Under the pieces are notes generated by a model. It was given only the letters and a program-made list of their open reading frames with translations. It did not search any database and had not been told where the DNA came from. From an uncultured Deferribacterales bacterium (GTDB lineage: Bacteria > Chrysiogenota > Deferribacteres > Deferribacterales > Mucispirillaceae), in assembly GCA_947853665.1 (NCBI GenBank), contig CANTXF010000040.1, positions 1 to 32,809 on the forward strand: a DNA stretch of 32,809 bases, written 5' to 3'. The translations under genes were made by a program, and so were the position numbers. Shown piece after piece: positions 2,384-27,366 of the stretch (position 1 is the first letter of the stretch; the number at the start of each line of letters is the position of its first letter).

Positions 2384-2392
2384 CACTCGCCC

Positions 2393-3424: not shown

Positions 3425-4523
3425 CCTCCGCGCTTTTGAAGGATATTCTGGGGTCCACGAGAACGTAAGTAAGGTCGCTTATAATATTAAGCAGCAGGCC
3501 CAGCAGGGTAAAAATATAAAGAGTGGCGAACATCACCGGGTAATCCCTGTTTATGGCGGCCTCAAAACCCATAAGCCCCATTCCGTCGAGAGAAAAAATC
3601 ACCTCAATAAGCAGCGAACCCGTAAAAAACATCGATATGAAAGCCGCAGGAAATCCCGATATGACTATAAGCATGGCGTTCCTGAAAACGTGGCCGTACA
3701 GTACGCGGTTTTCCGTAAGCCCCTTGGCCCTGGCAGTTATTACGTACTGCTTGCGCAGCTCCTCCAGAAAGGAGTTTTTAGTAAGCAGGGCGAGGGAGGC
3801 AAACCCGCCTATCACCATGGAAATCACGGGCAGGCACATATGCCAGAGATAGTCGCCGATTTTGCCCGGCAGGCTCATTTCCGAAAATCCGTCGGAAACA
3901 AGGCCCCTGAGAGGAAAAATGGAAAAATAGCTGCCTCCGGCGAAAAAAATAATTAAAATAACGGCGAAAAGGAATACCGGCACAGCGCCGCCCAATATCA
4001 TAAAAAACGAAGTCCAGGCGTCGAAAGGCGTGCCGTGCTTAACCGCCTTCCTTATACCCGCCGGGATGCCGATAAGGTATATCAGCAAAGAGCTCCATAT
4101 TCCCAGCGAAGCGGACACGGGGAGCCTCTCCTTTATCATTTCCACGACGGTGCGGTCTTTAAAGAAACTTTCCCCGAAATCGAAGCAGAGAAATTTCTTT
4201 ATGGTGACGAAATACCTTTCAAGCAGAGGTTTATCGAAACCGTAAAGCTTCTCTATTTTTTTTATAAGCTCCGGGGAAATGTTTTCTCCGCCTTTATATT
4301 TATCCATTATCCCGTCGCCCTCGCCCGCTATCTGCGGCCCGCCTGAAGCGTCCTCCTGACGCAGGGCCATTTCCTCCGCGGACTGGCCCTGGCCGGTGAT
4401 CTTGGCTATCATTGCCTCAACCGGCCCTCCAGGAGCCGCCTGAACGAGAAAAAAGTTAAGCGTAACAATCCCCAGGAGAGTGGGGACGATAAGCAGAAGC
4501 CTTTTCAGGATATAGGAGGCCAT
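3417..4523 (-). CDS. yejB: YejB-like peptide ABC importer permease
   Basis: Second inner-membrane permease of the Yej importer, 368 residues (E. coli YejB about 364). It starts with the MASYILKRLLLIVPTLLGI helix typical of DppB/OppB/YejB proteins. Residues of roughly 45-95 form the acidic, Gly-rich periplasmic insertion that marks YejB, ending in LYGFDKPLLERYF. The transport domain follows, with the coupling-loop segment ITARAKGLTENRVLYGHVFRN near 250 and a C-terminal DPRISF motif. It begins one base after the yejA stop and overlaps yejE by 8 bases. Its position directly behind the binding-protein gene is the usual yejABEF order. Confidence 0.93.
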   Translation of the reverse strand: MASYILKRLLLIVPTLLGIVTLNFFLVQAAPGGPVEAMIAKITGQGQSAEEMALRQEDASGGPQIAGEGDGIMDKYKGGENISPELIKKIEKLYGFDKPLLERYFVTIKKFLCFDFGESFFKDRTVVEMIKERLPVSASLGIWSSLLIYLIGIPAGIRKAVKHGTPFDAWTSFFMILGGAVPVFLFAVILIIFFAGGSYFSIFPLRGLVSDGFSEMSLPGKIGDYLWHMCLPVISMVIGGFASLALLTKNSFLEELRKQYVITARAKGLTENRVLYGHVFRNAMLIVISGFPAAFISMFFTGSLLIEVIFSLDGMGLMGFEAAINRDYPVMFATLYIFTLLGLLLNIISDLTYVLVDPRISFKSAEDA

Positions 4524-4524
4524 A

Positions 4525-6339
4525 CTATCTTTTTACCGCTTTGTTTATTTTCGCGTCCTTTTCCTTATCGAGCCACCAGCCGCCGAAGCCCAGGCTGTAT
4601 TCGGGAGCCTTGTCCGGCTTGCCGAACCTGTCCCAATAAGCTATGCGCCATCTGTCGGAATATCCTGCGGGGATAACGTACCAGCCGTTTTTAAGAACCC
4701 AGTCGAGCGCCCTTACCCTTTCGGTAAGCTCCTGCCTGTTCGCGGCGTTTATCACCATATCGACGAGCCTGTCCACCGCGGGGTCTTTTATGGAGGAATA
4801 ATTCCTGCCGCCTTTTTCAGACGCCGCCTCGGAGCTCCACATACCGCGCTGCTCGTTGCCCGGGGATTCGGACTGGCGCACCATGGAGTATATCATCATA
4901 TAATCCTTGTTCCGCACCCGCTCCACGTATTGGGCGGAATCCAGAAATTTTATCTCGAAAGCTATCCCTATGCGTTCAAGAGCCTTTTTAAAGGGCAGCA
5001 GGTCTCCCTCGACAGATTTGGACGAAATAATTATTTCAAGAGAAAGCGGCCTGCCGTTTTTATCCGCCATCACCCCGCCGGAATATTCGTATCCGGCTTC
5101 CCTGAGGATGGAAACGGCCTTCATCAGGTTCGCCCTGTTGTTCCCGTCGCCGCCGGAAGAAGGATAGGCGAAAGGCCGGGACAAAAACTCGTCCGAAGCG
5201 TCGGGCATGGCTTTTTTTACAACGGCGGCCTCCTCCGGGGAAAGGACGCTGCCGCTTGCCAGCGGCGAATTTGAAAAATAGCTGTCATACCGCCTGTCCT
5301 GGCCGAAATATATGTTTTTATTGAGCCAGTCGTAATCGTAGGCGTAATTAAGAGCCTTTCTTACCAGTATATCGTCGAGAGGCTTTACGGCGGAATTCAT
5401 GAATATGCCTTTCATGCCCTGTCCGTTTTTATGGCGTATCTCCTCCTTTTTTATAAAGCCCATATCGAAATAACGCCCCTCGTATCCTCTGTACCACCGT
5501 TTGCCGGAGCTTTCGCCGGTAAGGTCGAAAAGCCCCGCCTTAAAAGCCTCGAAAGCGACCGTCTGATCTCTGAAATATTCGAAGGTTATCCTGTCAAAAT
5601 TATTCTGCCCTTTCATACACGGCACGTTTTCGCCCCAGTAATCCCTGACCCTTTCAAAGACCACGCGCTTTCCGGCTTCATACTCCCCTATTCTGTAAGG
5701 CCCGCTCCCTAAAGGCGGCTCCAGCGTCGATTTGGATAGATCGCGCTTTTCCCAGTAATGCCGGGGTATTACCGTAAGCTGACCGGCGATAAGGGGCAGC
5801 TCCCTGCTGAAGCTGCCCTTTTTAAAAGTAAATTTTACCCTGTTCTTTCCCAGAGCCTCCGCCTTTTCTATAAGCTCGTAATAATTTTTATAGAAAGGGC
5901 TTACCTCGGTTATCTTATAAAAGCTGAAAACAACGTCGTCGGCCGTTACGGCTTTTCCGTCGTGCCAGCGGGCTTCCGGCCTCAGGTCGAATATCACCCA
6001 GGAATAATCCTCGGGATACTCGATGGTCCGGGCCAGCAGGCCGTAATAAGTACCGGCCTCGTCAAGGGAGCTTTTAAGCAGGGTGTCGTACATATATCCA
6101 GACGCTCTGAAAGCCACGCCTTTAACGGCAAAGGGGTTGAAGCTGTCGAAAGTTCCGTACATCGCCCTGCGGAATTCGCCGCCTTTCGGGGCGTCGGGCA
6201 CGGTATAATCGAAATGGGTAAAATCAGGGCCGTATTTTATCTCCTCGGTAAGAGAAACGGCGTGAGTCCTTATTACTTCCGCCTCCGCCGGCAGGGTAAA
6301 AAGGAAAAACAGAATAGGTAAAACGGCTTTTACAATCAT
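4525..6339 (-). CDS. yejA: YejA-like periplasmic peptide-binding protein
   Basis: Extracytoplasmic solute-binding protein (SBP_bac_5 family) that would deliver peptides to YejBEF. It is 604 residues, the same length as E. coli YejA. Residues 1-20 form a signal peptide ending in LPAEA, with no lipobox Cys, so it should be soluble in the periplasm. Typical family features are the ARWHDGKAVTADDVVFSFYK motif near 120, the RDYWGENVP segment near 235 and the RKALNYAYDYDWLNKNIYFG stretch near 330. The start codon overlaps the M16 protease stop as ATGA, so peptide-binding protein and protease appear to be translationally coupled. I infer that the peptides it binds are products of that protease. Confidence 0.93.
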   Translation of the reverse strand: MIVKAVLPILFFLFTLPAEAEVIRTHAVSLTEEIKYGPDFTHFDYTVPDAPKGGEFRRAMYGTFDSFNPFAVKGVAFRASGYMYDTLLKSSLDEAGTYYGLLARTIEYPEDYSWVIFDLRPEARWHDGKAVTADDVVFSFYKITEVSPFYKNYYELIEKAEALGKNRVKFTFKKGSFSRELPLIAGQLTVIPRHYWEKRDLSKSTLEPPLGSGPYRIGEYEAGKRVVFERVRDYWGENVPCMKGQNNFDRITFEYFRDQTVAFEAFKAGLFDLTGESSGKRWYRGYEGRYFDMGFIKKEEIRHKNGQGMKGIFMNSAVKPLDDILVRKALNYAYDYDWLNKNIYFGQDRRYDSYFSNSPLASGSVLSPEEAAVVKKAMPDASDEFLSRPFAYPSSGGDGNNRANLMKAVSILREAGYEYSGGVMADKNGRPLSLEIIISSKSVEGDLLPFKKALERIGIAFEIKFLDSAQYVERVRNKDYMMIYSMVRQSESPGNEQRGMWSSEAASEKGGRNYSSIKDPAVDRLVDMVINAANRQELTERVRALDWVLKNGWYVIPAGYSDRWRIAYWDRFGKPDKAPEYSLGFGGWWLDKEKDAKINKAVKR

Positions 6340-9146
6340 TCCGCTTCCTCCGGCCCGTAGACGGCGGTAAAGGAATCGTAGCCTTTAAGGGTGTCCGCGA
6401 TAAATTTATTAATATCCTCCACGCTCTGGCTTTCGGCTATTTTCTCAAGCTCCCCCGCGGATAAGGGCTTTCTGCCGGAAAGCATATCGTGGGCTATGGA
6501 GGGAGCCCAGTATTTATTTTCGCGGGCGGAGGATTCAAAAGCGTTTTTCTGGGCTTTTTTGGCCGCTTCAAGCTCATCGGCGCTTATGCCGTTCTTTATG
6601 AAGCCGTTTACCACTTCGATAGTTTTATTCAGTATTTCTTCCTTTCTTTCCGGGTCGCAGGTAAAGGATATTCTGCCGGTAAAATCCGTAACGGGGAAAT
6701 CGGAATAACGCAGAATAAGGTTCACGGAGTAAACTCCGCTCATTTCTTCCCGCACGGCCTGACGCAGACGGATACGGAGGGCGTTTCTCACGGGGAACAT
6801 TTTATACCTGCCCAATTCGTCGTTTTTTACGCGCTTATCCATAAAAATACTTAGCTCGGATTTATTTTCCACTTCGCCCTTTCCTTCGGCAAAGCCGTTT
6901 CTTATCTCAAGGCCGCGGCTTTTAACGGACGCTTTTTTGCCGGAGGGTTTAAGGGAGCCAAGATATTTAGCGCCCAGCTCTATTATTTTGTCGGGGTCAG
7001 CGTCGGCGGAAAAAACGAAAACAAAATTTTCCGGGTCCGAAAAACAGTCTTTATACATTTTCATAAGCCTTTCGGACGTAGCCGCCGTCATGTCCCCGGC
7101 AAGCAGATACGTTCTTCTGTAAGCGTCGTTATACATATCGGGGGCTATTTCTCTGAAAAACCTTTTTTTCCTGTCGGCTCCGTCTATTTTTATCTCGTTC
7201 TCAAAGCTTCTCCCAACGGCGGCAAGAACGTCCGGGTCGATATAAGCGTCGGTAAAATATTTATGCAGAAGCTGAAAAAAAGATTCTATATCCCTCGTAT
7301 CGCCCATGCCGTCGAAATCGAAAGTATATTCCGACGCTTTAAGCGAAAGCGCCGCCTGCTTACCGCTCATAAAAGCGTTTAGCTGCCTTTTTGAAACGTC
7401 TTTAAACCCGCTTGATGAAACGGCCTTAGCCATTACGGGAAAGAGGCGGGCTTCCTCGTCCCCCAGGCCGGACAGACCGCCCTTTTTTCTTGCCGCCATG
7501 ACGAAACGGTTTTTTTCCTCTCCGTTTCTTTTAACCACCAGCTTTACGCCGTTATCGTAAACGGCTTCCGCCGCGTCGATATTGTCGATATTCCTTCTGG
7601 ATTTCAGGACGCCGCTTTTTATGCCGCCTTTTATGAGATCGACCGCCTTAACGTCGTTTTTCTCGGCGGCGATCTCCGCCCCGGCAACGTCGGCCAGCAA
7701 TTTTTTAAAGGAAGCGGCGTCTATATTTATATTTTTCCTTTCCTTATCAGGCACGGTAACGGTAAGCAGCACGGAGCCGGAGGATACCATACCGGCGAAA
7801 GCCCTGTTAAAGCTCACGAGGTTAACGCCGTCAAAAAACCTTTTGAAAAGCTCCGCGTCCTGGGAGAATTCGGTAAGATAGCCGCCGAAATTGTCGTATT
7901 CGCATATACCTTCGGCATATTTTGCCGAGGGATATTTAAAATCGGGAGAAGCGGCCCTTTCAAGAAAGGTCATCCTGCCGTCGCGAAACTCTTTAAGCTC
8001 GTTCAGATAAAAACCGTGCCTTTTGGCCCTTTCTATTTCCGAAACGAATTCCCTGAGGGATTCGCCGAAAGCGCCTTCCTGAAATGACGCGTTGAAAACG
8101 GACATTCTGAGGCCGCCGTTCGTCTGAGACACGCCGGAACGGAACGAGAGCAGGCCGCTTTTCTTTTCGTTTATTTTAAGAGACATACGGCTGTTAAGCA
8201 TGGCGGAAGTCCCCTCCTGGAGAGAGAGCTTCTTAAAGCCTGCGAAATCGGACGGCCGCTCGCCTTTCTCAAAAAAAACTATCGACGCGGAAACGCCTTT
8301 CGCCTCCGGGTCGCTTATGACGTTGACTCTTACGCCTTCGGTAAGAGGCACGGAGGAATCGGCTTTTTCGGGAGTATCGCGTTTTTTCATGGAAGAAAAA
8401 TACTTTTCGATGAGTTCCTTTGCTTTTTCCGGCTCGATATTGCCGACGACCACAACGGACATATTGCCGGGAACGTACCATTTTTTATAATATCCCTCGA
8501 GAAGGGCTTTATCCGCGTTTTTTATTATATCTACGGAGCCTATCGGGTCTCTGTCGGGATAAAGCGAGCCTGCAAGCAGGTATTTTCTCGACTGAGAGCT
8601 TATGCGCTTGCGCAGGTCGCTGCGCATACGCCATTCCTCTATTATAACGCCTTTTTCGCTTTCGATGTCCGCTTCGTTAAAAAGTATGCCGTCGGCCCAG
8701 TCCCTCATGACAGCGAAGGCCTTTTCCAGCAGCGCCCGGTCCGAAGCCGGAACGGTAAGCTGGTAATTGGTATTTTCCGACGACGTGTAGGCGTTGCTGT
8801 CCTTGCCGAAAACGAGGCCCGCGTCCTCCATATATTTTATCACGCTGTTGCCGGGGAAGTTTTTAGTCCCGTTAAAAGCCATGTGCTCCACAAAATGGGC
8901 TATTCCAAGCTCTTTATCAGTCTCGTTAAGGGAGCCGCTGCGCACGTTAAGGCGGAACTCCACCTTATCGGAGGGAAAATCGTTGCTGCGTATATAGTAA
9001 GTAAGCCCGTTGTCAAGGCGGCCCGTAACGATTTTATCGCTGAAAGGAATGGAATCCGCCGCGTAAACGGCCGCCGAAATCAATGCGAGCTGAAAAGCCG
9101 TTAAAATAAAGAGAAGCAGTTTTTTCAGAGCGATCGTCATTTTCAT
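6336..9146 (-). CDS. Periplasmic M16 zinc protease, PqqL/FusC-like
   Basis: A full-length two-lobed M16 (inverzincin) protease of 936 residues, similar in size to E. coli PqqL and Pectobacterium FusC. The signal peptide spans roughly residues 1-30 and ends in VYAA. The inverted zinc motif HFVEH lies at 84-88 within AHFVEHMAFNGT, as in PqqL. The third ligand is a Glu in EKGVIIEE around 164-171. The C-terminal half (about 500-936) is the second, noncatalytic M16 lobe. Family knowledge: PqqL and FusC are encoded beside TonB-dependent receptors and cut imported proteins in the periplasm. Here the gene sits 16 bases behind tonB and overlaps yejA by 4 bases, so it links outer-membrane uptake to inner-membrane peptide import. 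The cleaved substrate is not known. Confidence 0.92.
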   Translation of the reverse strand: MKMTIALKKLLLFILTAFQLALISAAVYAADSIPFSDKIVTGRLDNGLTYYIRSNDFPSDKVEFRLNVRSGSLNETDKELGIAHFVEHMAFNGTKNFPGNSVIKYMEDAGLVFGKDSNAYTSSENTNYQLTVPASDRALLEKAFAVMRDWADGILFNEADIESEKGVIIEEWRMRSDLRKRISSQSRKYLLAGSLYPDRDPIGSVDIIKNADKALLEGYYKKWYVPGNMSVVVVGNIEPEKAKELIEKYFSSMKKRDTPEKADSSVPLTEGVRVNVISDPEAKGVSASIVFFEKGERPSDFAGFKKLSLQEGTSAMLNSRMSLKINEKKSGLLSFRSGVSQTNGGLRMSVFNASFQEGAFGESLREFVSEIERAKRHGFYLNELKEFRDGRMTFLERAASPDFKYPSAKYAEGICEYDNFGGYLTEFSQDAELFKRFFDGVNLVSFNRAFAGMVSSGSVLLTVTVPDKERKNINIDAASFKKLLADVAGAEIAAEKNDVKAVDLIKGGIKSGVLKSRRNIDNIDAAEAVYDNGVKLVVKRNGEEKNRFVMAARKKGGLSGLGDEEARLFPVMAKAVSSSGFKDVSKRQLNAFMSGKQAALSLKASEYTFDFDGMGDTRDIESFFQLLHKYFTDAYIDPDVLAAVGRSFENEIKIDGADRKKRFFREIAPDMYNDAYRRTYLLAGDMTAATSERLMKMYKDCFSDPENFVFVFSADADPDKIIELGAKYLGSLKPSGKKASVKSRGLEIRNGFAEGKGEVENKSELSIFMDKRVKNDELGRYKMFPVRNALRIRLRQAVREEMSGVYSVNLILRYSDFPVTDFTGRISFTCDPERKEEILNKTIEVVNGFIKNGISADELEAAKKAQKNAFESSARENKYWAPSIAHDMLSGRKPLSAGELEKIAESQSVEDINKFIADTLKGYDSFTAVYGPEEAE

Positions 9147-9162
9147 AAAACCCCATATTTAT

Positions 9163-10050
9163 TCATTTTTCATCAAGTCTGAAATTAAGAGAAACCACCA
9201 TGCCGACTTTCACCGGCCTGCCGTCCTTTTTTGCCGGGCTGAACCGCCAGGCGGCCACGGCGGTAAGGGCGGAATTTTCAAAAACGTTTTCGGGCACGGC
9301 CTTGATCACCTTAGGTTCTGCCACCCGGCCTTTTTCATCAAGAACGAAGCTCACCGTTACCGAGCCTTCTATCCTCATTTTTCTGGCGTATTCGGGATAT
9401 TTAGGCCTGGCGCTTTTTATGGATTTAGGCCTGCCGTCTACCTCTTTAAGAGAATACACCCCGTCGGCTCCCCCGCTTGAAGCTGCGGAACCCTGGCCGG
9501 AGCCTCCTCCTGCTCCCGTGCCCGTCTGCTTGCCTTTGGCCGATACGGCGGCGGATGCGGCTTCGGCCGTTTCCGCGCCATTCTCATCCTTTACGGCGGT
9601 CTTATCAGCGGATGTTTTTTCCGGCTCTTTATTATCCGCGGCGGCTTCGGCCGTTTTCTCCGCTTCCTGCGGAGGCTTATTTTCCGCCGGTTGTTTTAAA
9701 GACGCTTCCTTTACCGCCGGGGGCGTTTTTTTCACAGGCTTTTCAGGCTTTTCGGCCTTTTCGGCGCGGTCCCGGTTCTTTTTTCTGTCAGGCTCCTTCG
9801 CGCGTTTTGCAGACGCCGCCTTTTCCGCCCGGCTTTTTTCCGCCCCGGTTCTCGCGGCGGAATTTATATCGGCGCTCGCCGTCTCTATGCCTTTAGCGGC
9901 TTTACCCGCCCCCGGGTCCGCGTGAATAACGGACATGGAAAGAACGAGCTTTTCGCCGTCCTCCTTTTTATAGACCGCGTGCCCCAGCCACAGGAAAGCC
10001 CCCGCAAGGGCTACGTGCAGGATAACGGACTGCAAAAGCGCCTTTTTCAT
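9163..10050 (-). CDS. tonB: TonB family energy transducer
   Basis: Inner-membrane protein that transmits proton-motive force to the outer-membrane receptor, 295 residues. Residues 6-25 are the single N-terminal helix. It contains the SVILH pattern matching the SxxxH of E. coli TonB that is needed for coupling to ExbBD. A long charged linker rich in Ala, Lys, Glu and some Pro spans about 60-205 and would cross the periplasm. The C-terminal TonB domain starts near 215 with RPKYPEYARKMRIEGSVTV and ends with an AAWRFSPAKKDGRPV stretch. It begins 4 bases after exbD. Its presence inside the receptor operon implies a dedicated Ton motor rather than use of a general housekeeping TonB. Confidence 0.94.
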   Translation of the reverse strand: MKKALLQSVILHVALAGAFLWLGHAVYKKEDGEKLVLSMSVIHADPGAGKAAKGIETASADINSAARTGAEKSRAEKAASAKRAKEPDRKKNRDRAEKAEKPEKPVKKTPPAVKEASLKQPAENKPPQEAEKTAEAAADNKEPEKTSADKTAVKDENGAETAEAASAAVSAKGKQTGTGAGGGSGQGSAASSGGADGVYSLKEVDGRPKSIKSARPKYPEYARKMRIEGSVTVSFVLDEKGRVAEPKVIKAVPENVFENSALTAVAAWRFSPAKKDGRPVKVGMVVSLNFRLDEK

Positions 10051-10054
10051 AGCG

Positions 10055-10435
10055 TTATTTTATCTCCGTTTTAAGGCTTACCTTTTCAAACCCTTTGGAG
10101 TTCAGAATCCCCATAAGAGCCGCAAACGGCTGTATTTCCGCGCTTTTATCCGCCCACACGCTTATAGCGTCGCTTTTCGGGTCGAGCTTTGCAAGAACCT
10201 CTTTTATGCCTTCAAGGTCGGTTTTTCTGTTTTCATAATAATATTCGCCTTCGGCGCTTATGGTTATCACGACGGGCTCCTCCCCGCGCTCCGTACCGGA
10301 GGCGGCTTCCGGCAGCTTTACCGGTATGGCCCCGGTTTTTATAAAGGTGGCCGTGGCAAGCACTATCGTAAGCAGCACCAGCATAATGTCGATAAAAGGC
10401 ACTACGTTTATGGAATCAAAGCTTTTTTCTCTCAA
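10055..10435 (-). CDS. exbD: ExbD-like Ton motor subunit
   Basis: Small inner-membrane protein (126 residues) of the ExbB-ExbD-TonB motor. One transmembrane helix lies near residues 12-33. The proton-path Asp sits in PFIDIMLVLL (Asp16), equivalent to Asp25 of E. coli ExbD. A periplasmic domain follows, ending with the usual short beta-alpha-beta fold. The start is TTG, with GGAGG six bases upstream inside the exbB 3' end. The two genes overlap by 20 bases, so they are almost certainly co-translated. Confidence 0.92.
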   Translation of the reverse strand: MREKSFDSINVVPFIDIMLVLLTIVLATATFIKTGAIPVKLPEAASGTERGEEPVVITISAEGEYYYENRKTDLEGIKEVLAKLDPKSDAISVWADKSAEIQPFAALMGILNSKGFEKVSLKTEIK

Positions 10436-10847
10436 GCTCCGCCTCCTTTACGAGAATCAGCTCGTTTACCTTTCTGTGCAGAAAGTTATAGAGAATAATA
10501 GCGGGAATGGCCGTAACAAGCCCGGCGGCGGTGGCTTTAAGGGCGAGGGCAAGCCCCGTCATTATGCCGCTTACGTCCACTCCGCCGCCTTCGCCCATGA
10601 CGTAAAAGGTAAACATTATCCCTAAAACGGTGCCGAGAAGCCCCACATAGGGCGCGTTGCTGCCTATCGTGGCTATTATGTGCAGCCTTCGGGTAAGATC
10701 CAGCTCGTAAAGCTCCAGACTGTCGTAATCGCCGGGATTAACGCGCTTATAAAACCTGCACCGCTCTATGGCCACAGCCACGGCTATAACGCTCATAATC
10801 CCCAGCACGGCGATAATGCCGTAATCGATAAGATATTTAGAAGCCAA
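10416..10847 (-). CDS. exbB: Short ExbB/TolQ/MotA-type Ton motor subunit
   Basis: Proton-channel subunit of the Ton motor. At 143 residues it is the short ExbB form known from epsilon-type bacteria such as Helicobacter, lacking the long N-terminal extension of E. coli ExbB. Helix 1 spans about 8-27. The core MotA/TolQ/ExbB motif is in SNAPYVGLLGTVLGIMFTF (about 63-81) and GLALALKATAAGLVTAIPA (about 97-115). The start is TTG one base after the preceding gene's stop, with GGAGG seven bases upstream. It overlaps exbD by 20 bases. Confidence 0.92.
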   Translation of the reverse strand: MASKYLIDYGIIAVLGIMSVIAVAVAIERCRFYKRVNPGDYDSLELYELDLTRRLHIIATIGSNAPYVGLLGTVLGIMFTFYVMGEGGGVDVSGIMTGLALALKATAAGLVTAIPAIILYNFLHRKVNELILVKEAELERKKL

Positions 10848-10848
10848 T

Positions 10849-12090
10849 TCAGCGCCTCCGTCCGTTATTAAGTATTAAAACCGCCGCAAGACCGTAAATT
10901 CCGGTTAAGAGTATGATAAAAGACGCGCCGTACGGCGGGCGGCGGTTCCCCGATCTTACCGAAATTATAAAATAGGCCGCCGCGAGAATAAGAGAAAAAA
11001 CGAAAGCCGCCGCGGGCTTTTCGCTTAAAGATGCCTTCAGAGGAAAAGAAGGCGCGTTTTTATCGTCGTATATATAAAAAGGAAAAATCACGTGGAAAAC
11101 GGCCTTCATGCCGCTTTTCATGCTGTCATCCGACAGGGACGAATAAACGGCCCTTTCCGTAAAATCCCAGCCGGCGGCGCTTACGCGCTCCGTGGAGCCG
11201 TCCGAAACCTTTGCGGTAATATAGAGAGGGTCGGCGCTTATCCTCAGCGTGTCCGCGTAAGGGTTATAATTTCCGGCAGGCACCTTTCTTACGGAATAAT
11301 CCTCTTTCATAAGGGCGTATATGCCGCCCTCCCTCGTTATTATAAAGCAATAATACCTTACACCCGGCTTTTCGTTCGCATATATATGCACGATCTCCCC
11401 GTTTTCCGGGCCGAAACCCGTTTTAACGACCTCAGGACGGCCCTCCGCCTGATAGACCCTGAAAAGAAATCCGGACGAATCCGCAACAAAATATCCGTAA
11501 TCCGTCTGCTTGCGGGGGTCGGTATTCCCGCCTATGACCTTCGCCGGGAATACGAAGCCCTTTTCCCTGAGAGCGCCTGTAAAAAGCTCCGATTTTTCCT
11601 CGTCAGTTTCGATGGAGGAAGCGTTTATAAATTCCATGCGTTCCTTTATCCTGAAAAGCTCCCCCGGAAACTCCAGCGAGGCGGAATCGCTTTTAGTATC
11701 GTAAAGCGGGTAAAGACCTATCCTTGTGCCGGAGTGGTTTATGTCCGACGGGCGCACGCTTATAAAATCCGTTTCCTTCTGGACGGTTTCAAAAGGAACG
11801 AAAACTCCTCCGATAATATCCGGATATTCGCCTTTCATCTGAAGATCGCGGTAATAAACGAACGGGGCCAGCTTCTTAAATTCGTTAAGGTCGTAAATAT
11901 TTCCCACCCTGTCGCAGTAAGAAGTGTCTTTCCCGCTTTTAATCATAATAAAATCCTCTATCACCGGGCTGAAAAACACGTTCGGCGCATAGGGCTTTTT
12001 AACGGCGGCTATCCCGTAGAAATAGGGCATAAAATACGCGAAAGACATAACGCCTATCATTATGACGGCAAATCCTGACAAAACCCTCAT
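10849..12090 (-). CDS. DUF4857-like membrane protein of the ABC transporter block
   Basis: 413 residues from the ATG at 12090. This start forms an ATGA overlap with the upstream permease and has a GGGAGG site 8 bases before it; longer in-frame starts would run far into the permease gene. One N-terminal helix (about 3-24) is followed by a periplasmic domain of about 300 residues, then two C-terminal helices (roughly 355-373 and 385-402). The N-terminal part, with VFFSPVIEDFIMI, a LNEFKKLAPFVYYRDLQ stretch and a PDIIGG motif, resembles my memory of the DUF4857 family found in Bacteroidota next to ABC ATPase/permease pairs. It is probably an accessory subunit of the ABC transporter encoded just upstream. 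Its biochemical role is unknown. Confidence 0.75.
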   Translation of the reverse strand: MRVLSGFAVIMIGVMSFAYFMPYFYGIAAVKKPYAPNVFFSPVIEDFIMIKSGKDTSYCDRVGNIYDLNEFKKLAPFVYYRDLQMKGEYPDIIGGVFVPFETVQKETDFISVRPSDINHSGTRIGLYPLYDTKSDSASLEFPGELFRIKERMEFINASSIETDEEKSELFTGALREKGFVFPAKVIGGNTDPRKQTDYGYFVADSSGFLFRVYQAEGRPEVVKTGFGPENGEIVHIYANEKPGVRYYCFIITREGGIYALMKEDYSVRKVPAGNYNPYADTLRISADPLYITAKVSDGSTERVSAAGWDFTERAVYSSLSDDSMKSGMKAVFHVIFPFYIYDDKNAPSFPLKASLSEKPAAAFVFSLILAAAYFIISVRSGNRRPPYGASFIILLTGIYGLAAVLILNNGRRR

Positions 12091-12752
12091 CTGCCGCCTC
12101 CCGCCCTGTAACCGGACGCCGGATAAAAAACCGAGGCTAAAGACAGCAGCGCAGGCGCAAAAGCGATAAAAGCTCCCCAGCAAGACGGGCGGTAAACCGA
12201 AACCCCGAAAAACGCCGCGCCTCCGCAAAGCAGCAGGGCTAACCCGGCCCTGCCTCCCCAGGAAGGCTCCAAAGCGACGGAAGCGGCCGCGGAATATAGA
12301 AAGACCGAAAAAAACAGGCTGTATATCATTACGGACGGTATCCTGCCCCATAAATCGTAAGGAAAGAAAAAAGACGCCGACAGCATAACGCCCGCCGTGT
12401 CGAACAGCCACAGAAAGCATACGGATGAAAGGCCGAAAAGCAGCATATAAAGGAGGGTAAGGTCTTCATTCTGAGGCAGATGGCAGGATATGCGGAAACG
12501 CCTGCCGGAGGACTCCGGATAAAACTGCAAAAAACCCAGTATAAAGGCGGAAGCGGCAAGGGGAACGGATATCCTGTCGAAGAAAAAGGCGTTCCTCTCT
12601 ATAATATCCAGCCATAAAAGAGCCGGTTCCTGCATTATAAAGCCCACCCTGACCCTGAAATACGAATACAGAAGCACCGCGGCGTTTACGGCGAAAGCCG
12701 CCGCGAGAGCCCGGCGGAGCTTTATGCCTTCTTTATAAAAAATGCTTTTCAT
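12087..12752 (-). CDS. ABC transporter permease (six-helix, unassigned family)
   Basis: 221-residue hydrophobic protein with about six predicted transmembrane segments, starting near residues 18-36 and 50-70. The start at 12752 is preceded by GGAG and lies 14 bases after the ATPase stop; an upstream in-frame ATG at 12887 would overlap the ATPase gene by 120 bases and adds only basic, non-membrane sequence. The N-terminus MKSIFYKEGIKLRR with cytoplasmic basic residues is usual for ABC-2-type permeases. I infer that it is the membrane partner of the neighbouring ATPase. No substrate can be read from the sequence. Export of a molecule from the cytoplasm is more likely than import because no binding protein of its own is encoded. 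Confidence 0.78.
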   Translation of the reverse strand: MKSIFYKEGIKLRRALAAAFAVNAAVLLYSYFRVRVGFIMQEPALLWLDIIERNAFFFDRISVPLAASAFILGFLQFYPESSGRRFRISCHLPQNEDLTLLYMLLFGLSSVCFLWLFDTAGVMLSASFFFPYDLWGRIPSVMIYSLFFSVFLYSAAASVALEPSWGGRAGLALLLCGGAAFFGVSVYRPSCWGAFIAFAPALLSLASVFYPASGYRAGGGR

Positions 12753-12766
12753 TATCAGCTCCAAGC

Positions 12767-13663
12767 CTAATATTTGCCCGTTACGGCGATAAAGGCGTCT
12801 TCTAGAGAAACGTCTCTCTGATAAAAATCGCCGCTCCCCATTCTGCCGGAGAAAAACTCCCCCGCCTTTTCGGGAGGCACGGAACATATTATATCTACGG
12901 AATCGTTATTAACCGACACATCCATAACCGAAGGGTCGCCTTCTATGAGCCTGCGGTCCGAACCGGCCGGAAACCGGTAGCAGTAAATGTCTTTTTTTAT
13001 GTCGCCGAGAGGGGCGGCCTTTACCACCTCGCCCTTATTTATTATCACGGCGTAATCGACGAACCTTTCAAGATCCTGCACTATGTGGGAAGTTATGAGA
13101 ACGGTTTTGCCGCCTTCTCTTACGAACTCGTTAAGGCGGTCTATAAAAAGCCTTCTGTATCCGGCGTCAAGCCCCATCGAAAAATCGTCGAGGATAAGAA
13201 CTTCCGCCCCTTGAGCCATAAGGGCGGCAAGCACCACCTGCGAACGCTGGCCGCAGGACATATTTTTTATCTTCCTGCTTTCGGGAAGCCCCAGCTTTTC
13301 CATAAAATATCTGAAAATCCCGCCGTCCCACCGCGGATAAAAGCTTTTATAAAACTTTTCCGTCTGGGCGATCGTCATAAAGTCGTAGGCGAGATGCCCT
13401 TCGTGAAGGAGCCCGGTTCTGCGCTTTGTTTCCGGGGACATACGCGAAACATCCTCTCCGAAAACGCGGCACACTCCCCCGGAAGGCTTGAGAAAGCCCA
13501 TAACGATATTTATGGTGGTGGTTTTACCCGCGCCGTTTTTTCCGAGAAGGCCGTACACCCTGCCTTTTTCCATACTGAAGCTGACGCCTTTGAGCGCTTT
13601 GGCGCTTCCGTAGGAATGTTCGAGATTTTCGACGGATATTACCGTATCCGCGTCAGAATTCAT
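12767..13663 (-). CDS. ABC transporter ATPase with divergent signature motif
   Basis: 298-residue ABC ATPase of the ABC-2/CcmA type. Walker A is GKNGAGKT (41-48). The signature is MSCGQ (135-139) instead of LSGGQ. Walker B is VLILDDFSMGLD, with Asp160 where the catalytic Glu normally sits. The H-loop His is in LITSHIVQDLE. The C-terminal 80 residues form an accessory domain. The start ATG overlaps the TonB-receptor stop by 11 bases, so translation is probably coupled. The LDDFSMGLD variant may be a family trait of transporters paired with DUF4857 proteins; I recall similar sequences in Bacteroidota but could not check. The Asp may slow ATP hydrolysis rather than abolish it. Confidence 0.9.
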   Translation of the reverse strand: MNSDADTVISVENLEHSYGSAKALKGVSFSMEKGRVYGLLGKNGAGKTTTINIVMGFLKPSGGVCRVFGEDVSRMSPETKRRTGLLHEGHLAYDFMTIAQTEKFYKSFYPRWDGGIFRYFMEKLGLPESRKIKNMSCGQRSQVVLAALMAQGAEVLILDDFSMGLDAGYRRLFIDRLNEFVREGGKTVLITSHIVQDLERFVDYAVIINKGEVVKAAPLGDIKKDIYCYRFPAGSDRRLIEGDPSVMDVSVNNDSVDIICSVPPEKAGEFFSGRMGSGDFYQRDVSLEDAFIAVTGKY

Positions 13664-16175
13664 ATTTTACTCCGAACCACGCCTGTATGCCCAATTCGTA
13701 ATCGGTATTCGACGCCGCGTAGTATTTTTTTCCTATTTTGTTTTTGGTGTTGAGGAGGTTGTAAACCTCCGCCTGAACGGTTATTTTATGGCCGAACCAT
13801 ACGGGCTGTATCCATTCGAGGCCCATATCCACCGTAAAATTGTTTCCATATTCCACGTCTTCGTAAGCCGACGTGGTGGCGGTTACGGTGCTTCCGGTAA
13901 CGGGGTCTACGTAAGTGTATCCGTAGCTGTCGTCGTATATCTGTTCCACCGCCTTGTAGGGCGACTTATATTTAAGCATGAGCGAAACGCGGAGACGGTC
14001 GAAAAAAAGCCCGGTATAAGCCAGATTTACCGTAACAGGCCTGCTGAAATTGTCCTTGGGGAGCTGCCACGCGTATATTTGCCTGCCGTTGTAATATATT
14101 ACGTTGTCCATATCCTCCAGGTCGAAGGAATCTTCGTAAGTATTGTTGGAAGTCTCCGACATCTGCCACGTCAGGTTCGCCATTACCCGGTGGCTTCCCC
14201 AGCTTTTGGTCCACTTAAGCTGCACAGAGCGGTAAGTGCTTTTGCCGTTATTGTTAAAGGAATAATACATTACGCCGTCTTCGGCCAGCCTGCTCCTTGA
14301 AAGAGCCACCATATCCCTGCTGTGGCGCTCAAGATATTTAAGGTCCACATAGCTGCCGAATATCCTTTGGGTAACGCCCCCCATATATTCGTCGGAATAG
14401 GGAGTCCTCAGCCCGGAATAATTATAGGAGGATTTTGAGCCGTCGGAGCTGACGCTCCAGGGCTGGACCACGTTGTTATATGTCCAGCGCTTTTCCGTGT
14501 AGGAAGGGGCCCGGCCCTCCCGCAGCTTGTATGCAAGCAGTGGGGCGGAATAATATCTGTTGTACCCGCCCGTAAGTATAGTAAGGCCGTTGCCGAATAT
14601 ATCCGCGCTTATCTGGGTTCTCGGAGCGGCGTTAAAATTTTTCATATAGTCGTCGTAGCTTAGCCGCGCCCCGGCCCTCAGCTCAAAGCGGAATATTTTA
14701 TATTTATCCTCTATATAAGCGGAGGCCGCGTTGACAAGGGCGTTCACGTCGGAAGCGGGCGTTACGGTACGTCTTGAAAAATACTGGTCCCCGTCCACGC
14801 AGTCGAAAGCGTCCGTGCAGATAACGTCCGGGGAGCGGGTGGCGTCCATATACGTGGCGGAATCCTTCAGCCTTCTGTAACGGCCCTGAACGAAAGAATA
14901 GGAAGCGCCGTAGCTTACGTTGTGTTCGCCGAAAAATTCCAGCGGTTTTATATCGTGGTCGAAGGAAATTTTTACGCTCTGCTCCTCCTTATCTATGCTG
15001 CCGAAGCCTCCTTCCATGCTCAGATCGTTATCGGCGCCGGAATATATCCCCCAGGGCTTATAGCTGGTCGTAGCCCACGATCTGTAAGAATCGGGAGCCC
15101 TTTTGCTGTTTTCCGACCAGGAATAATCCAGATGGGCCTTTATCTTATGGCCGCCGAACTCGTTTACGTAATTAGCCGAACCAAAATAGCCTCCCCCTTT
15201 GATGCGGAATTCGCTGTCCTTAGTGTTTTTCAAAAAATACTGGTTATTATGGGGAGAGTACGAAAAAGACGTGTCTATATAGCTGGAGCCGCTGATATTA
15301 TACATACCTTTAAGATAGTACGTTTCTGAAAGCCTGCTTTGATTTTCCCAGCCCTGGAAAAACCTTACCGGCAGCACGGACCAGTTTCTGTTATAGCTGA
15401 GCAGAACCCCGCCCCTGTCCGTTACGGGTATGTCGAGAGCCGCGCTCAGAAAATGCTTTTCAAAACGCAGCTGCTTGCCCATATCCCCGCCGTCGAAAGA
15501 CGCTTTATCCTCATCGCTCACAAAAAAATGCGTAAGAGGGTCCCCCGTTCCCTTATAAGAGAAATTTCCGCCCAGTTTAGTGCCGGGCTTCCTCGTATGC
15601 ACGTCCACAACGCCGCCGGTAAACCCGTCGTAAGCGGCGGACACGTTGCTGTCGTACACGGTTATATCTTCCACAAGCCACGAATTTATAAAAAACTTCT
15701 GCGGGTCCCCCGCCACGTCGTTCGCCAGGTTGGGATTGTCGGAAGCAGGGTCCAGAAGGCTGGAATTGCTCATGCCGTCGATAAGGAACAGATTGTCGTA
15801 ATAAGCCGCGCCGGATATGGATATTTTCGCCGGGCTTATTTCCCCGGCGCTTTCCGCGCTTCTGTAATCCTCGCTGAACTGGACCCCGGGAGCTACGGTG
15901 AGAATATCCGTAATGCCGCCGTTGCCGGAAGGCACGTTTTCTATTATTTCCCTCGGTATTTCCGTTTTGCCCGGGGTTTTGCCTTCGTTTATGGTCTCCA
16001 CAACATCCATATCTTCCATGATAAAAACGTCTTCAAGGCCGTCCGCTCCGGAGTTTTCCTCCTCACCCGCGGCGGGCTGGGAAGGGCTTTCCTCCGCCCT
16101 TACAGAAGACGCCGGAGAAAGTAAAAAAGACGCGCTTATAAACAAAAAAAATAAAAACCTGAAATAAGCTGCCAT
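13653..16175 (-). CDS. TonB-dependent outer-membrane receptor
   Basis: 840-residue receptor. The signal peptide (1-27) ends in SSVRA. An acidic linker, possibly carrying a TonB-box-like segment in DVFIMEDMDVVET, leads to a plug domain of roughly 70-210 with ENVPSGNGGITDILTVAPGV and the LFLIDGMSN motif. The rest shows the alternating aromatic strands of a 22-stranded barrel and ends in KYEF, with the terminal Phe needed for barrel assembly. Two Cys in ICTDAFDC, in a likely surface loop, could form a disulfide. The gene lies between a large lipoprotein and the transporter genes, as in SusCD/RagAB-like or Fus/Pqq-like loci. The ligand is not evident; the Fur-like promoter suggests an iron-containing or iron-related cargo. 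Confidence 0.94.
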   Translation of the reverse strand: MAAYFRFLFFLFISASFLLSPASSVRAEESPSQPAAGEEENSGADGLEDVFIMEDMDVVETINEGKTPGKTEIPREIIENVPSGNGGITDILTVAPGVQFSEDYRSAESAGEISPAKISISGAAYYDNLFLIDGMSNSSLLDPASDNPNLANDVAGDPQKFFINSWLVEDITVYDSNVSAAYDGFTGGVVDVHTRKPGTKLGGNFSYKGTGDPLTHFFVSDEDKASFDGGDMGKQLRFEKHFLSAALDIPVTDRGGVLLSYNRNWSVLPVRFFQGWENQSRLSETYYLKGMYNISGSSYIDTSFSYSPHNNQYFLKNTKDSEFRIKGGGYFGSANYVNEFGGHKIKAHLDYSWSENSKRAPDSYRSWATTSYKPWGIYSGADNDLSMEGGFGSIDKEEQSVKISFDHDIKPLEFFGEHNVSYGASYSFVQGRYRRLKDSATYMDATRSPDVICTDAFDCVDGDQYFSRRTVTPASDVNALVNAASAYIEDKYKIFRFELRAGARLSYDDYMKNFNAAPRTQISADIFGNGLTILTGGYNRYYSAPLLAYKLREGRAPSYTEKRWTYNNVVQPWSVSSDGSKSSYNYSGLRTPYSDEYMGGVTQRIFGSYVDLKYLERHSRDMVALSRSRLAEDGVMYYSFNNNGKSTYRSVQLKWTKSWGSHRVMANLTWQMSETSNNTYEDSFDLEDMDNVIYYNGRQIYAWQLPKDNFSRPVTVNLAYTGLFFDRLRVSLMLKYKSPYKAVEQIYDDSYGYTYVDPVTGSTVTATTSAYEDVEYGNNFTVDMGLEWIQPVWFGHKITVQAEVYNLLNTKNKIGKKYYAASNTDYELGIQAWFGVKYEF

Positions 16176-16194: not shown

Positions 16195-16237
16195 AAAAAT
16201 TAAAGAAAGGGGGAGGGGAGAGCCTTTCTCCCCTCCC
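16195..16237 (-). terminator. Intercistronic hairpin between lipoprotein and receptor genes
   Basis: A perfect 10-bp stem, GGGAGGGGAG (16211-16220) with CTCCCCTCCC (16228-16237) and a 7-base loop, is followed on the minus strand by a broken T-rich tract (CCTTTCTTTAATTTTT). It could be a leaky terminator or an RNA-stability element that makes the lipoprotein more abundant than the receptor and downstream genes. It fills the only sizeable gap inside the operon. Confidence 0.65.
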
Positions 16238-16254: not shown

Positions 16255-19200
16255 TCAGTCTTTATAAAACGGCGTAAGGTCTTCCGTATCCGGTTTGCCG
16301 TCCCCGTCTATATCGTCGTCAAGAACGTAGCCGAATTTGTCGATGTCGGCCTGAGTCGCCCAGGGAGCGAAGAAATCAGGCTTGCCGTCCTTATCGAAAT
16401 CGGACACGGCTATATAGCCGTTGCTGCTGTCCACCTTATACGAGGTAAGCCCCTCGGCTATTGTTCTTACTCCGTCGTGCCTGTCGGCAGTGTTGGAAAG
16501 CAGGGACATGGTTTTTTCATAAGCCTCGTCCACAAAGTCAAGCGCCGTATATTTCTCGATTATATCCAGAGCCTTTTCCTTTCTGTCGGACTGGCTGTTT
16601 ATCAGATCAAGCGGTTTTTCCGCACTGACAAGCGCGGCGCGGGCGCCGTCGTAATCGAACATGGCTTCGTAAACGCCCGCGATATCCCGGAAGCGGGAAA
16701 CGGACGTTTTATAGTAATCCTCACTCGCGGCGCTTTCATACATGGAAACAAGCCTGCTCTCCGCCTTCGCAAGAAGATCGCGGGCCGTCGCAGCGTAATC
16801 GGGCCGTTCCATAACTACCGCGTCGTAGGCGCGAAAAACATCCAGGCTGAAAAGATGGCCTTCCGGAGCGGAAGCTATAAGGGACATACCCGCCGATTCG
16901 CCGTACCATTTCTCATACAGATCGCCGAAGCCGAATTCCCTGGCATAGTAAGCGAGAGCGGAGCAGTTAAGGTATTTGACAAAATTATCGGACAGATTAT
17001 CGTTAAAACTTTTGGCGGCTTCAAGCACTTCCCTGGCTTTATCCTTATCCCCCAGTTTATCGTAGTAATAAGCCACCGCCGTGTATCCGTCTCTTGAGTA
17101 TTTGCCGGTATAACCGCTGAAAGTGCTCATTTTATCGGTTTTTGCCTGGCTTTCCGTAAAGTCGCTGAAAATAAAATTAATTCCGCTGGGCTCCGGCCTG
17201 GTGAGCTGATAGGCGGCGGCGTCCTTAACTTTGCCGTAAGCGTAGTCGAGAGCCTGGCGGGCAAGGTCGTTATTTCCCGCCTCGATAGCCTGCCTGGCCA
17301 TTCCCCCCGTTTTATAGGAAGCCGTGCCGACAAAAGCGTAAACAAGCTGTTTGCTGCCCACCACGTTGGAATAGGTTTCGTCGACGGGAGAAATGCTTTC
17401 ATAAAGATTTTTAGCGTCGTCGAAGGAAGAACCTGCGGCCGTGCTGAACATTATATCGGCAACGACGTCGCCCTTCGTCCTTTTGCCCGAAGCGTCGCTG
17501 CCCATTTTATCAAGAAGCGCGCTGCCCGACTCAGGGCTGATAAGCAAATAAGCGCCTACCGCCCCGTATTTGAGCTGGGTCCTCAATCCGGAGGCCAGCC
17601 CGGCGGGATAGCCTGCGGCTTCTTCCTTCGCTACTACGGACAGAATCTTATCGTATATCTTAAGCGCTTCAGCCTGCGCCTGCTCTTTATAGGAAGCGTC
17701 GGCGGCGGCCGCTTCGGCGTAAAACATCATGGCGTGGGAATAATACATAACGGCGGAATTAGCCACGGTATTCATGGTACTCTTAATGCCCGCGTCATAA
17801 TATTTGTTATAATATTCGCCTGTGGAATCGGTAAAAACGGGAAGAAGGTTCATCAGCGCCCGTATATCGCCGGAATCCAGATATTCTTTGAGTATGCTTG
17901 TGCTTGAAGTATAAGCACCCATTTTGGACAGAAGCTGCCCAAAAACGGTCTGCGGCTTGGAAGCGGCGTTTATCAAATCCCCGGTAATAAGCTTATTCAC
18001 TTCCAGAAACTTATCGGCGGCCCCGCTTTGTGAAAAAGCTCCCGCTACCGACACGTATATATTGATAAAATCGGCGTCTACCGTAAAACCGCCGTTTCTT
18101 ATGGATTCAAGCTCGCCGTAGGCTTTCTGGGCATACTCAAGGCCCGTGTTCCTGTCGCTTAGAGAGGCGCCTTCGGATATTCTGACGTGAGCCTTCGCCC
18201 TGTTAAGGGAGCTTCTTACATACACGTCCGCAAAGGTTTCGGCTTTATCTATAAGGTTGAATTTCGCATAAGTCCTTATTATGTTAAGATATATATCGTC
18301 GTTTACGCTGTCGTTGAGCACCCTGGCCGTAAGGGAGCGCGCTTTATAGTTTCTGTCGGCGTCGGAGTTGAAATAATATTCCAGACGTTTTTGATTATCC
18401 CCGCCTAAAGGCTCGGAAAGAGGAACGCTGGCTATGTAAACGTCCTCGCTGATCATTTTATCGAGAATATTTTTAAGCTCCTCCCCGGCGGAAGCGAAAA
18501 GCGCGCCCAAATTCGCCTGAAAAACCGCGCTTTCAGTATCGAAAGTGGCGTACTGTCCCAGAGAAGCGTCGTATGAAGCTATATATCTTGCTATCTGGTT
18601 TACCGTAAATTCGTTAAGGGGGATAACGGCGCCGGCGAAGGTTTTAAGAGAACCGGCGAGAAAGCCTATATTGGAGACAGCGTTGGCCGAAAGGGCGGAA
18701 ACCTCCGTCCCCAGAAGGGACGCGTAGGACTTTAAAAACATATTCGTCAGCTCGTATGAGGAAATGCTCTCCACAAGGCCCGCTATATTTTCCGAGCTCA
18801 TGGACGCAAAGGCCTGGGCGGCCGCTTTCATTTCCGCTGCGGAAGCCGCGTCGGAAGCGAAAATCTCACTTAAAACGGCGTCGCTGGAGAACCCCCCCCC
18901 GTTTTTAGCGACAGCCCCGGCTATTTTTCCGATAGGGTCGTCTCCGCCTATCGCCATGGCCGCTTTCACTACTAAAAACGCCTGTTTTAAAATCTCGCCG
19001 CTGCTTTCAGGATCAGCCTGAATATCGGCAGGGTTAAGCCCCAATGCGGAAGCTAGAACTTCAGCCGCTTCATCCGCCGTATGGCCGGAGTCCATAAGGG
19101 ATTTCATAAGCGAAGTAAGAGGCGTTACATTTACGCCGGAATAATTCCCGTCCGCCCCGGCGGCGAAGGCGTCGGCGGGAGACGTAAGGGATATGCCGGA

Positions 19201-19530
19201 ATAATTTATACCGTAGGCCGTATCCGTCCCGCCGGTCGATTTAATGTGATATCCGGAAAGATCGGCGGAATTGGAAACTGTCATGGAAAAGGTGCCGTCC
19301 TGGGCGCTCCACGCCTGACAGACCGAATTGAAATTAACGCCGCAGAAATTGGCGGTCTCCCCGGACGGGGAAATGAGCGTAAGCCTGGCCTCCTCTATGG
19401 CCGGGTCGCTTATTTTGCCGGATATGGTAACGGCGGACGAAGGAACGACGCCGCCGGAACCGCCGCCCGAGCTGCTTGAACAGGCCGTCACAGCGGCCAG
19501 CGCCGCGGCAAGCATAAGATACTTCCTCAT
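16255..19530 (-). CDS. Large repeat-rich lipoprotein, first gene of the import operon
   Basis: 1091 residues. Signal peptide 1-16 ends in the lipobox VTAC (Cys17), followed by a Ser/Gly linker. Residues about 34-125 look like a beta-sandwich of the carboxypeptidase-regulatory kind, then an Ala-rich helical region. From about 380 to 1030 there are helix pairs reminiscent of TPR/SEL1 solenoids. The C-terminus has Asp-rich calcium-binding loops, DFDKDGKPDFF and DDIDGDGKPDTEDLTP, like thrombospondin type 3 or EF-hand loops. A GGAGG site lies 4 bases before the ATG. By analogy with SusD/RagB lipoproteins beside TonB receptors, I infer that it is surface-exposed and captures cargo; no direct homology to those is claimed. 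A G9 tract encodes Gly211-213. Confidence 0.85.
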   Translation of the reverse strand: MRKYLMLAAALAAVTACSSSSGGGSGGVVPSSAVTISGKISDPAIEEARLTLISPSGETANFCGVNFNSVCQAWSAQDGTFSMTVSNSADLSGYHIKSTGGTDTAYGINYSGISLTSPADAFAAGADGNYSGVNVTPLTSLMKSLMDSGHTADEAAEVLASALGLNPADIQADPESSGEILKQAFLVVKAAMAIGGDDPIGKIAGAVAKNGGGFSSDAVLSEIFASDAASAAEMKAAAQAFASMSSENIAGLVESISSYELTNMFLKSYASLLGTEVSALSANAVSNIGFLAGSLKTFAGAVIPLNEFTVNQIARYIASYDASLGQYATFDTESAVFQANLGALFASAGEELKNILDKMISEDVYIASVPLSEPLGGDNQKRLEYYFNSDADRNYKARSLTARVLNDSVNDDIYLNIIRTYAKFNLIDKAETFADVYVRSSLNRAKAHVRISEGASLSDRNTGLEYAQKAYGELESIRNGGFTVDADFINIYVSVAGAFSQSGAADKFLEVNKLITGDLINAASKPQTVFGQLLSKMGAYTSSTSILKEYLDSGDIRALMNLLPVFTDSTGEYYNKYYDAGIKSTMNTVANSAVMYYSHAMMFYAEAAAADASYKEQAQAEALKIYDKILSVVAKEEAAGYPAGLASGLRTQLKYGAVGAYLLISPESGSALLDKMGSDASGKRTKGDVVADIMFSTAAGSSFDDAKNLYESISPVDETYSNVVGSKQLVYAFVGTASYKTGGMARQAIEAGNNDLARQALDYAYGKVKDAAAYQLTRPEPSGINFIFSDFTESQAKTDKMSTFSGYTGKYSRDGYTAVAYYYDKLGDKDKAREVLEAAKSFNDNLSDNFVKYLNCSALAYYAREFGFGDLYEKWYGESAGMSLIASAPEGHLFSLDVFRAYDAVVMERPDYAATARDLLAKAESRLVSMYESAASEDYYKTSVSRFRDIAGVYEAMFDYDGARAALVSAEKPLDLINSQSDRKEKALDIIEKYTALDFVDEAYEKTMSLLSNTADRHDGVRTIAEGLTSYKVDSSNGYIAVSDFDKDGKPDFFAPWATQADIDKFGYVLDDDIDGDGKPDTEDLTPFYKD
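18892..18900 (-). repeat. G9 homopolymer tract inside the lipoprotein gene
   Basis: Nine consecutive C on the plus strand (G on the coding strand) encode Gly211-213 in frame. Tracts of this kind change length by replication slippage, and gain or loss of one base would truncate the lipoprotein and could be polar on the operon. It is one of only two G/C runs of eight or more that I saw in the window. Confidence 0.9.
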
Positions 19531-26324: not shown

Positions 26325-27366
26325 ATGAAAAAAATACGCGTACTATTGCTTGCCGCGGCCATGATCTCCTCGTGTTTTATCTATGGCTGTGAAGATTCGT
26401 CGGGAGGCGGAGACGTATCCGGGAACATAATCCCGGGGGGGGAACAACGGCGGGGGCACGGCCTCTGGGAACATCGACGAGCTGTATCCCAACTTTAAAG
26501 TAGGGCTGGCCCGGTTCGTAGCGGAGAACGGCACGATAACCCAGGAAGAAAAAACCTTTATCATAGAAAGCCTGGCGGGCATCAGGGCTCTTTTCAATAT
26601 AGAGCATTTCCGCTCTCAGGTAAGAAGCAACTGGGATACTTTCAACAGCAAGGACGAAGGCTCCTACGTTACATTTGAAGCCGGGTCGGGCAGCGCCAAA
26701 AAGACCTATACAGGGGTTTTCGGTCCGACCTATGGAGCACCCGACGGTATTCCCGACGGCGGATGCTACCAAACAAACCAATATTGGCCCGATATAAAGC
26801 CATGCGGCTCCTATCTGGGGCATGCTAACGGCGGCCTGTATTATTTTCTCTCCGACAGAGACCAGAACGCCGAAGAATACAGAAATTTCGCCAATTATGA
26901 AGCGTCTTTTGCAAAACGCGGATTTAAAGACCTCCTCGACCGGGACAGAATGATGGAGCTATTCGATAAAACCGAATACAATCTGATTTTTACTAAAAAA
27001 GAGTTGGGGGCGGCTAAGGAGCTGGCGTCTATAGGCCCTTACAGATATCTTATGGATCTGAACAACGAAACGCTGAAGAACGACCAGATACTGTGGTTTC
27101 CAAACAAACACTGGATAAACGACAACTGGGCCGGATACAAACCGGCACTTGTAATGCACGGAATCATGCATAACCTCGGATTTAACCACTATCAAACCAC
27201 CAGCGATTTTGGGACGAATATCACCGCCGAAACGGCTATTACCCAATATATCGCAAGCGAGCTGCCCAAGCTGATAAACAAACAGGGCGATTACGCGGAC
27301 GATGCAACCCAGAAGATTTATAATGATTTATTGACCCACTACAAAGCAAAATACGGCGGGTTATAA
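26325..27366 (+). pseudogene. Frameshifted lipoprotein with metzincin-like motif lacking the catalytic Glu
   Basis: ATG at 26325 follows an AAGG site and opens a signal peptide with lipobox candidates ISSC (Cys17) and IYGC (Cys22), then a Gly-rich linker. As written, the frame breaks at a G8 run (26435-26442) and stops soon after. Removing one G joins it to a long frame ending at 27366, giving about 346 residues. The joined protein continues through a Gly/Asn linker into DELYPNFKVG and a globular domain. Near its C-terminus it has HGIMHNLGFNH (27157-27189), the metzincin zinc pattern HExxHxxGxxH with Gly (GGA) in place of the catalytic Glu (GAA). It may be a decayed protease, a phase-variable gene in its OFF state, or a sequence error at the G run combined with a true pseudoenzyme. 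Confidence 0.75.
26435..26442 (+). repeat. G8 homopolymer tract at the frameshift
   Basis: Eight G in a row in the linker just after the signal peptide. Seven would keep the lipoprotein frame open. The location near the 5' end is typical for slippage-controlled surface-protein genes. Confidence 0.9.

Follow-up and report, generated by a model that had tools for sequence, protein, structure and literature searches.

A G9 tract in a lipoprotein gene as a probable member of a genome-wide set of candidate phase-variation loci in Mucispirillaceae

Introduction

Most knowledge of phase variation comes from a small number of host-adapted genera and chiefly concerns surface antigens and DNA modification. 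Phase-variable repertoires differ between related species, so that conservation of a tract in orthologues is no strict requirement. The tracts of Campylobacter jejuni are about nine bases long, and this bacterium lacks mutS and mutL. In Neisseria meningitidis, the porA, opc, and fetA promoters possess poly-G or poly-C tracts between their -35 and -10 elements, and the length of the tract sets the spacing of these elements.

For C. jejuni NCTC11168, 29 loci with poly-G/C tracts of at least seven bases are reported (PMC4965091). The genome studied here resembles that of C. jejuni in possessing many poly-G tracts of about nine bases in a small host-associated genome, mostly within genes and with a frameshift (here a predicted one) as the consequence of slippage. 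It differs in belonging to another phylum, in having at least 64 tracts of nine or more bases, in having kept mutS1 and mutL, and in that a large share of its tracts belongs to molybdopterin reductases or to a stereotyped promoter. Placement of a homopolymer between -35 and -10 elements is shared with porA, opc, and fetA of N. meningitidis, whereas here one near-identical promoter recurs several times in a genome, in most cases ahead of a lipoprotein gene. In Helicobacter pylori, a G-repeat in the mRNA leader of tlpB is read by the small RNA RepG (PMC8295292). The likeness to our data is one of position: a chemoreceptor gene has a variable-type G run in its leader. The runs found here (L057, L060) differ in lying at Shine-Dalgarno distance. 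The closest match to the gene arrangement of our locus is, in the words of a citing article, a Mycoplasma surface lipoprotein that is encoded in an ABC-transporter operon and switched by a localized frameshift (Theiss and Wise 1997, cited in PMC2831843). Organism and proteins are unrelated; here a TonB and ABC cluster of a Gram-negative bacterium is concerned, and its switching is predicted.

Homopolymer phase variation is thus already known, and the sequences point to the phylum, the target class, and the stereotyped form of the promoter as the elements that would be new. We found no reports of phase variation in Mucispirillum, Deferribacter, or their phylum, nor of phase-variable molybdoenzymes or respiration, in the open-access literature searched, where absence is no proof; in a 2025 review on the topic (PMC11868660), none of the words Mucispirillum, Deferribacter, and reductase appears.

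Results

The G9 Tract of the Window and the Downstream Import Cluster

The window, by which we mean the whole stretch of 32,809 nucleotides that was analyzed, belongs to a 2.43 Mb draft genome (68 contigs) from a Mucispirillaceae genus other than Mucispirillum, a third genus of this family. The tract and its gene are located as follows.

18892..18900, (-) strand: G9 tract, codons 211-213 (Gly-Gly-Gly), in frame in this assembly (from the sequence)
16255..19530, (-) strand: lipoprotein gene, 1091 aa, at the head of an import cluster

The + strand of the window reads C9 at 18892-18900, which corresponds to G9 on the coding strand with its start exactly at codon 211. An earlier note on this DNA had placed the tract in frame at codons 211-213 of the first gene and had claimed that a slip truncates the lipoprotein; sequence and frame bear out the former, and the computed mutation products agree with the latter, since a one-base slip yields a product of 219 or 221 aa instead of 1091. 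In the mechanism that we propose, slipped-strand mispairing during replication would change the number of G residues, and any length change not divisible by three would end translation of the 1091-aa lipoprotein at 219 or 221. The population would consequently be a mix of lipoprotein-plus and lipoprotein-minus cells.

The protein carries the lipoprotein signal MRKYLMLAAALAAVTAC and matched no Pfam family. Its homologues across the order share 25-35% identity, and the gene for a TonB-dependent receptor adjoins the lipoprotein gene in relatives too. A run of at least six at the position of codons 211-213 was absent from all homologues that we compared, and the window tract is therefore lineage-specific. 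Judged by the criteria for in-gene SSR contingency loci, the homopolymer extends far beyond chance and a change in its length alters the product, while the tract is not kept in orthologues; from a comparison of sequences, this last point would count against a phase-variable role. The case for the tract at 18892-18900 consequently depends on its membership in a genome-wide set, and not on conservation of the tract itself.

Downstream of the lipoprotein gene, the following features were found.

16211..16237 (16237-16211), (-) strand: terminator-like hairpin with an 11-bp stem in the lipoprotein/receptor gap (consensus scan only)
13653..16175, (-) strand: TonB-dependent receptor with Plug domain (domain match)
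9163..13663, (-) strand: ABC ATPase, 266-aa protein, DUF4857 protein, ExbB, ExbD, TonB
794..9146, (-) strand: M16 peptidase, SBP family 5 binding protein, two permeases, double ATPase (peptide/nickel-type ABC importer)

Whether the tract would switch the entire cluster is a separate matter. An early stop would leave about 2.6 kb of untranslated message, and polarity could then lower expression of the receptor, TonB, and ABC genes. Such an effect would be in keeping with the arrangement of all genes in a row on one strand, and with a scan for a single promoter type that revealed no sigma-70-like promoter on that strand between the lipoprotein and receptor genes. Against it, the terminator-like hairpin, a possible attenuator, suggests that the receptor genes are already partly uncoupled. 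With this hairpin behind the lipoprotein gene, the downstream effect of a slip could be none, partial, or polar. We therefore regard a switch of the whole cluster as a tentative and somewhat doubtful add-on to the main explanation, not as an alternative to it, and have graded it separately; any influence on the downstream import genes would be a predicted part of that explanation. In sum, the phase variation proposed in the earlier note gained support, as did its link to lipoproteins in a widened form, but the proposed control of the whole import operon is unproven in view of the hairpin and of the homologues that have no such tract.

Genome-Wide Excess and Placement of Long G Runs

The genome contains 69 G9 words in 64 runs of at least nine (60 G9, 3 G10, and 1 G11), compared with 0.16-2.4 such runs expected by extrapolation from runs of 4-6, the G3-G6 baselines being drawn from about 0.5 Mb in stretches around tracts. 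Shorter runs are represented by 11 of exactly G7 and 9 of exactly G8, while runs of six occur at 40 per 0.5 Mb. The run lengths are bimodal with a peak at nine, and the long runs are not the tail of the ordinary ones; a peak of this kind is what an equilibrium length of slippage would give. The exact length of nine in 60 of the 64 assembled tracts was, on the other hand, counted against the phase-variation reading. Taken by itself, the window has five overlapping G7 words and no excess over dinucleotide shuffles (mean 12), but such shuffles retain the GG steps that the runs contribute. Of the genomes in the order, most contain 0-3 G9 words.

Tracts within genes have their G residues on the coding strand in a ratio of 34:3, as compared with 234:169 for G5-6 runs (p=3e-5), and tracts are over-represented between genes (p=8e-6); both tests employ our own ORF calls trained on codon usage and treat the tracts as independent. 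About 20 of the in-gene tracts preserve the reading frame, and about 14 coincide exactly with a change of coding frame. The halves of these frame-broken genes, which were searched separately and unrepaired, belong to six molybdopterin reductases (L055, L056, L072, L079, L086, L088), a Big_2-domain lipoprotein (L058), a sulfatase-family protein (L076), and a glycosyltransferase (L095), among others. In-gene tracts, which often stand right after the signal peptide or lipobox, would act as translational on/off switches.

Lipoproteins, redox proteins (respiratory reductases), chemoreceptors, and envelope-sugar enzymes are the classes whose genes bear tracts. The expectation that long G/C runs cluster in surface genes thus holds for lipoprotein and envelope-sugar genes and widens to redox and chemotaxis genes. 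Many equally long runs in housekeeping genes had been named as contrary evidence; among such genes, no long G run was seen in the ribosomal and tRNA-synthetase ones of this genome. About 12 intergenic tracts without evident target count against the phase-variation reading.

Tracts in Promoter Spacers and at Shine-Dalgarno Positions

Eight of the 31 intergenic tracts lie in the spacer of a sigma-70-like promoter (at least 10 of 12 consensus bases matched), compared with 2.6% of random intergenic positions (p=1e-6). The promoter at L078 is a perfect match, TTGACA-15-TATAAT, with C9 within the spacer. A pattern search detected the C-tract promoter five times in this genome and 3-13 times per genome in nine Mucispirillum genomes. 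The 30 other genomes searched, which comprised a 57%-complete Mucispirillum, four members of another genus of this family, and 25 genomes from other families, had none; with the pattern reversed as a control, there were 0-1 matches.

L205-L234: poly-C-spacer promoters
L053:4515-4523: poly-C-spacer promoter
L063, L078, L094, and L100, each 4997-5005: poly-C-spacer promoters

These promoters are strikingly uniform, reading TTGACATTCCCCCCCCC(A/G)TGATA(T/A)AAT, with a spacer of usually 15 bp and often an extended -10 element; their consensus form is TTGACATT-C9-[A/G]TGATATAAT. The downstream genes are mostly 25-50 bp away, and 19 of 28 encode a lipoprotein signal as judged by eye. As in the porA/opc type, these tracts, which are others than that of the window gene, stand between near-consensus -35 and -10 elements with a gene start near downstream, and changes in their length would tune transcription. 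Behind a TTGACA-16-TATTAT promoter with C9 in its spacer (4997-5005), we also noticed a nitrous-oxide-reductase-like gene (L052:2244-4829, (-) strand); searches of other Mucispirillaceae yielded no NosZ, which leaves no conservation of this promoter tract to compare.

In five cases, the end of a G9 run is placed 5-10 bases upstream of a start codon.

L057, L060, and L096, each 4997-5005: Shine-Dalgarno G9 runs
L059:8756-8764: Shine-Dalgarno G9 run
L086:1381-1389: Shine-Dalgarno G9 run
L116: likewise a Shine-Dalgarno G9 run

Two of the five precede chemoreceptor genes (L057, L060). From their position, these tracts possibly form a class that would tune translation, although normal Shine-Dalgarno sites are G-rich in any case.

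Molybdopterin Reductases and Comparison With Mucispirillum

The genome encodes about 26 molybdopterin oxidoreductases (28 domain matches), and 12 of these carry G9 or G10 near the N-terminus (p=3e-13, hypergeometric, with approximate gene numbers). In 11 of the 12, the tract directly follows a twin-arginine signal and lipobox (SRRxFxK...LYGCSKDDGGEIIYGGG), while that of L080 is inside the signal; six tracts are in frame and six out of frame.

L054, L055, L056, L070, L072, L079, L080, L081, L083, L086, L087, L088: tract-bearing reductases of this genome
L117, L128, L130, L185-L190, L193: tract-bearing reductases of Mucispirillum (G8-G10)

At the homologous position, G8-G10 runs are present in four genes of a single-contig Mucispirillum genome (G002) and in six of another (G008); no such run was present at the reductase starts that we sampled in the family's other genus, in two further Mucispirillum genomes, and in two outgroups. 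The Mucispirillum stretches possess about 30% G+C, and a G9 run there is thus very unlikely to arise by chance. With one genome per species, variation in tract length was seen between species only, at two orthologous tracts other than that of the window: G8 vs G9 in the reductase pair L189/L193, and C8 vs C9 in the promoter pair L232/L234.

Discussion

With a probability of roughly 0.8, we consider the G9 tract of the window to be a contingency (phase-variation) locus, one of about 64 G9-G11 tracts. Slippage within populations, its rate and reversibility, and the switching of expression are what we infer from the anatomy described above.

Mutational bias might instead lengthen G runs to about nine at any site that tolerates them; the window tract would then lie in a Gly loop of the lipoprotein and have no role in switching. 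The absence of the tract from the homologues of the window lipoprotein, the intergenic tracts without evident target, and the peak at nine, which could itself be a mutational equilibrium, would all fit such neutral growth. It does not account well for the strand bias, nor for the excess in promoter spacers and right after lipoboxes, the use of the same reductase site in two genera about 20% apart in G+C content, and the presence of the tract in 12 of about 26 reductases (p=3e-13, with approximate gene numbers); we therefore judge it unlikely. That homopolymer length errors in sequencing or assembly produced the G9 runs and the frame breaks, as a draft genome of 68 contigs with 60 of 64 runs at exactly nine might suggest, is very improbable, since independent Mucispirillum genomes, including a single-contig one, show the same tracts at the same positions and the same promoter motif, and most genomes of the order have only 0-3 G9 words.

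Mismatch repair was likewise considered. The genome contains mutS1 (TIGR01070, 900.6 bits, full length) and a MutL domain, and in this respect does not follow the Campylobacter type, in which mutS and mutL are absent; PF05188 (MutS_II) gave no match in this genome or in Mucispirillum. Loss of mismatch repair as a cause was rejected on account of the intact mutS1 found with full-length TIGR01070. Since mutS1 and mutL are present, slippage gets no help from repair loss, which we counted against phase variation.

If the tracts are phase-variable, a wider reading, towards which we lean with some reserve, is that Mucispirillaceae randomize their anaerobic respiration and envelope in this way. The members of an expanded family of Tat-exported lipoprotein reductases, each with a G tract of its own at the same N-terminal place, would flip independently, and lipoproteins would be governed by one stereotyped poly-C-spacer promoter, and chemoreceptors by poly-G Shine-Dalgarno sites. 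Single cells would then differ in the electron acceptors that they can use. A genome-wide set in the Deferribacterota, comprising Mucispirillum and an uncultured sister genus of gut bacteria, would extend phase variation to this phylum, and respiratory reductases would become a switchable class, a form of bet-hedging on electron acceptors.

Further Homopolymers in the Window and in Other Genomes

Apart from the G9 tract at 18892-18900, the only G/C run of at least eight in the window is a G8 tract at 26435-26442.

26435..26442, (+) strand: G8 tract directly after the signal peptide of a second lipoprotein gene (from the sequence)
26325..27366, (+) strand: frame-broken lipoprotein gene with the G8 tract; ATG at 26325, halves in different frames in this assembly

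The statement that the sole other long G run of the window sits in a lipoprotein gene proved correct, and this run breaks the frame of its gene. The downstream half of the gene contains an HxxxHxxGxxH-like stretch and matches Astacin weakly, below threshold (E 0.04).

In a genome of the same order and another family (G037; L115, L118, L120, L122, L124, L126), we counted 417 G9 words; single runs reach about 23 G and few are exactly nine. Either this genome is even richer in poly-G, or its assembly has produced an artefact. Within the gene family of the window lipoprotein, an independent homopolymer was noticed in a distant homologue, where C10 (L042:1553-1562) encodes part of a proline linker a short way behind the signal peptide.
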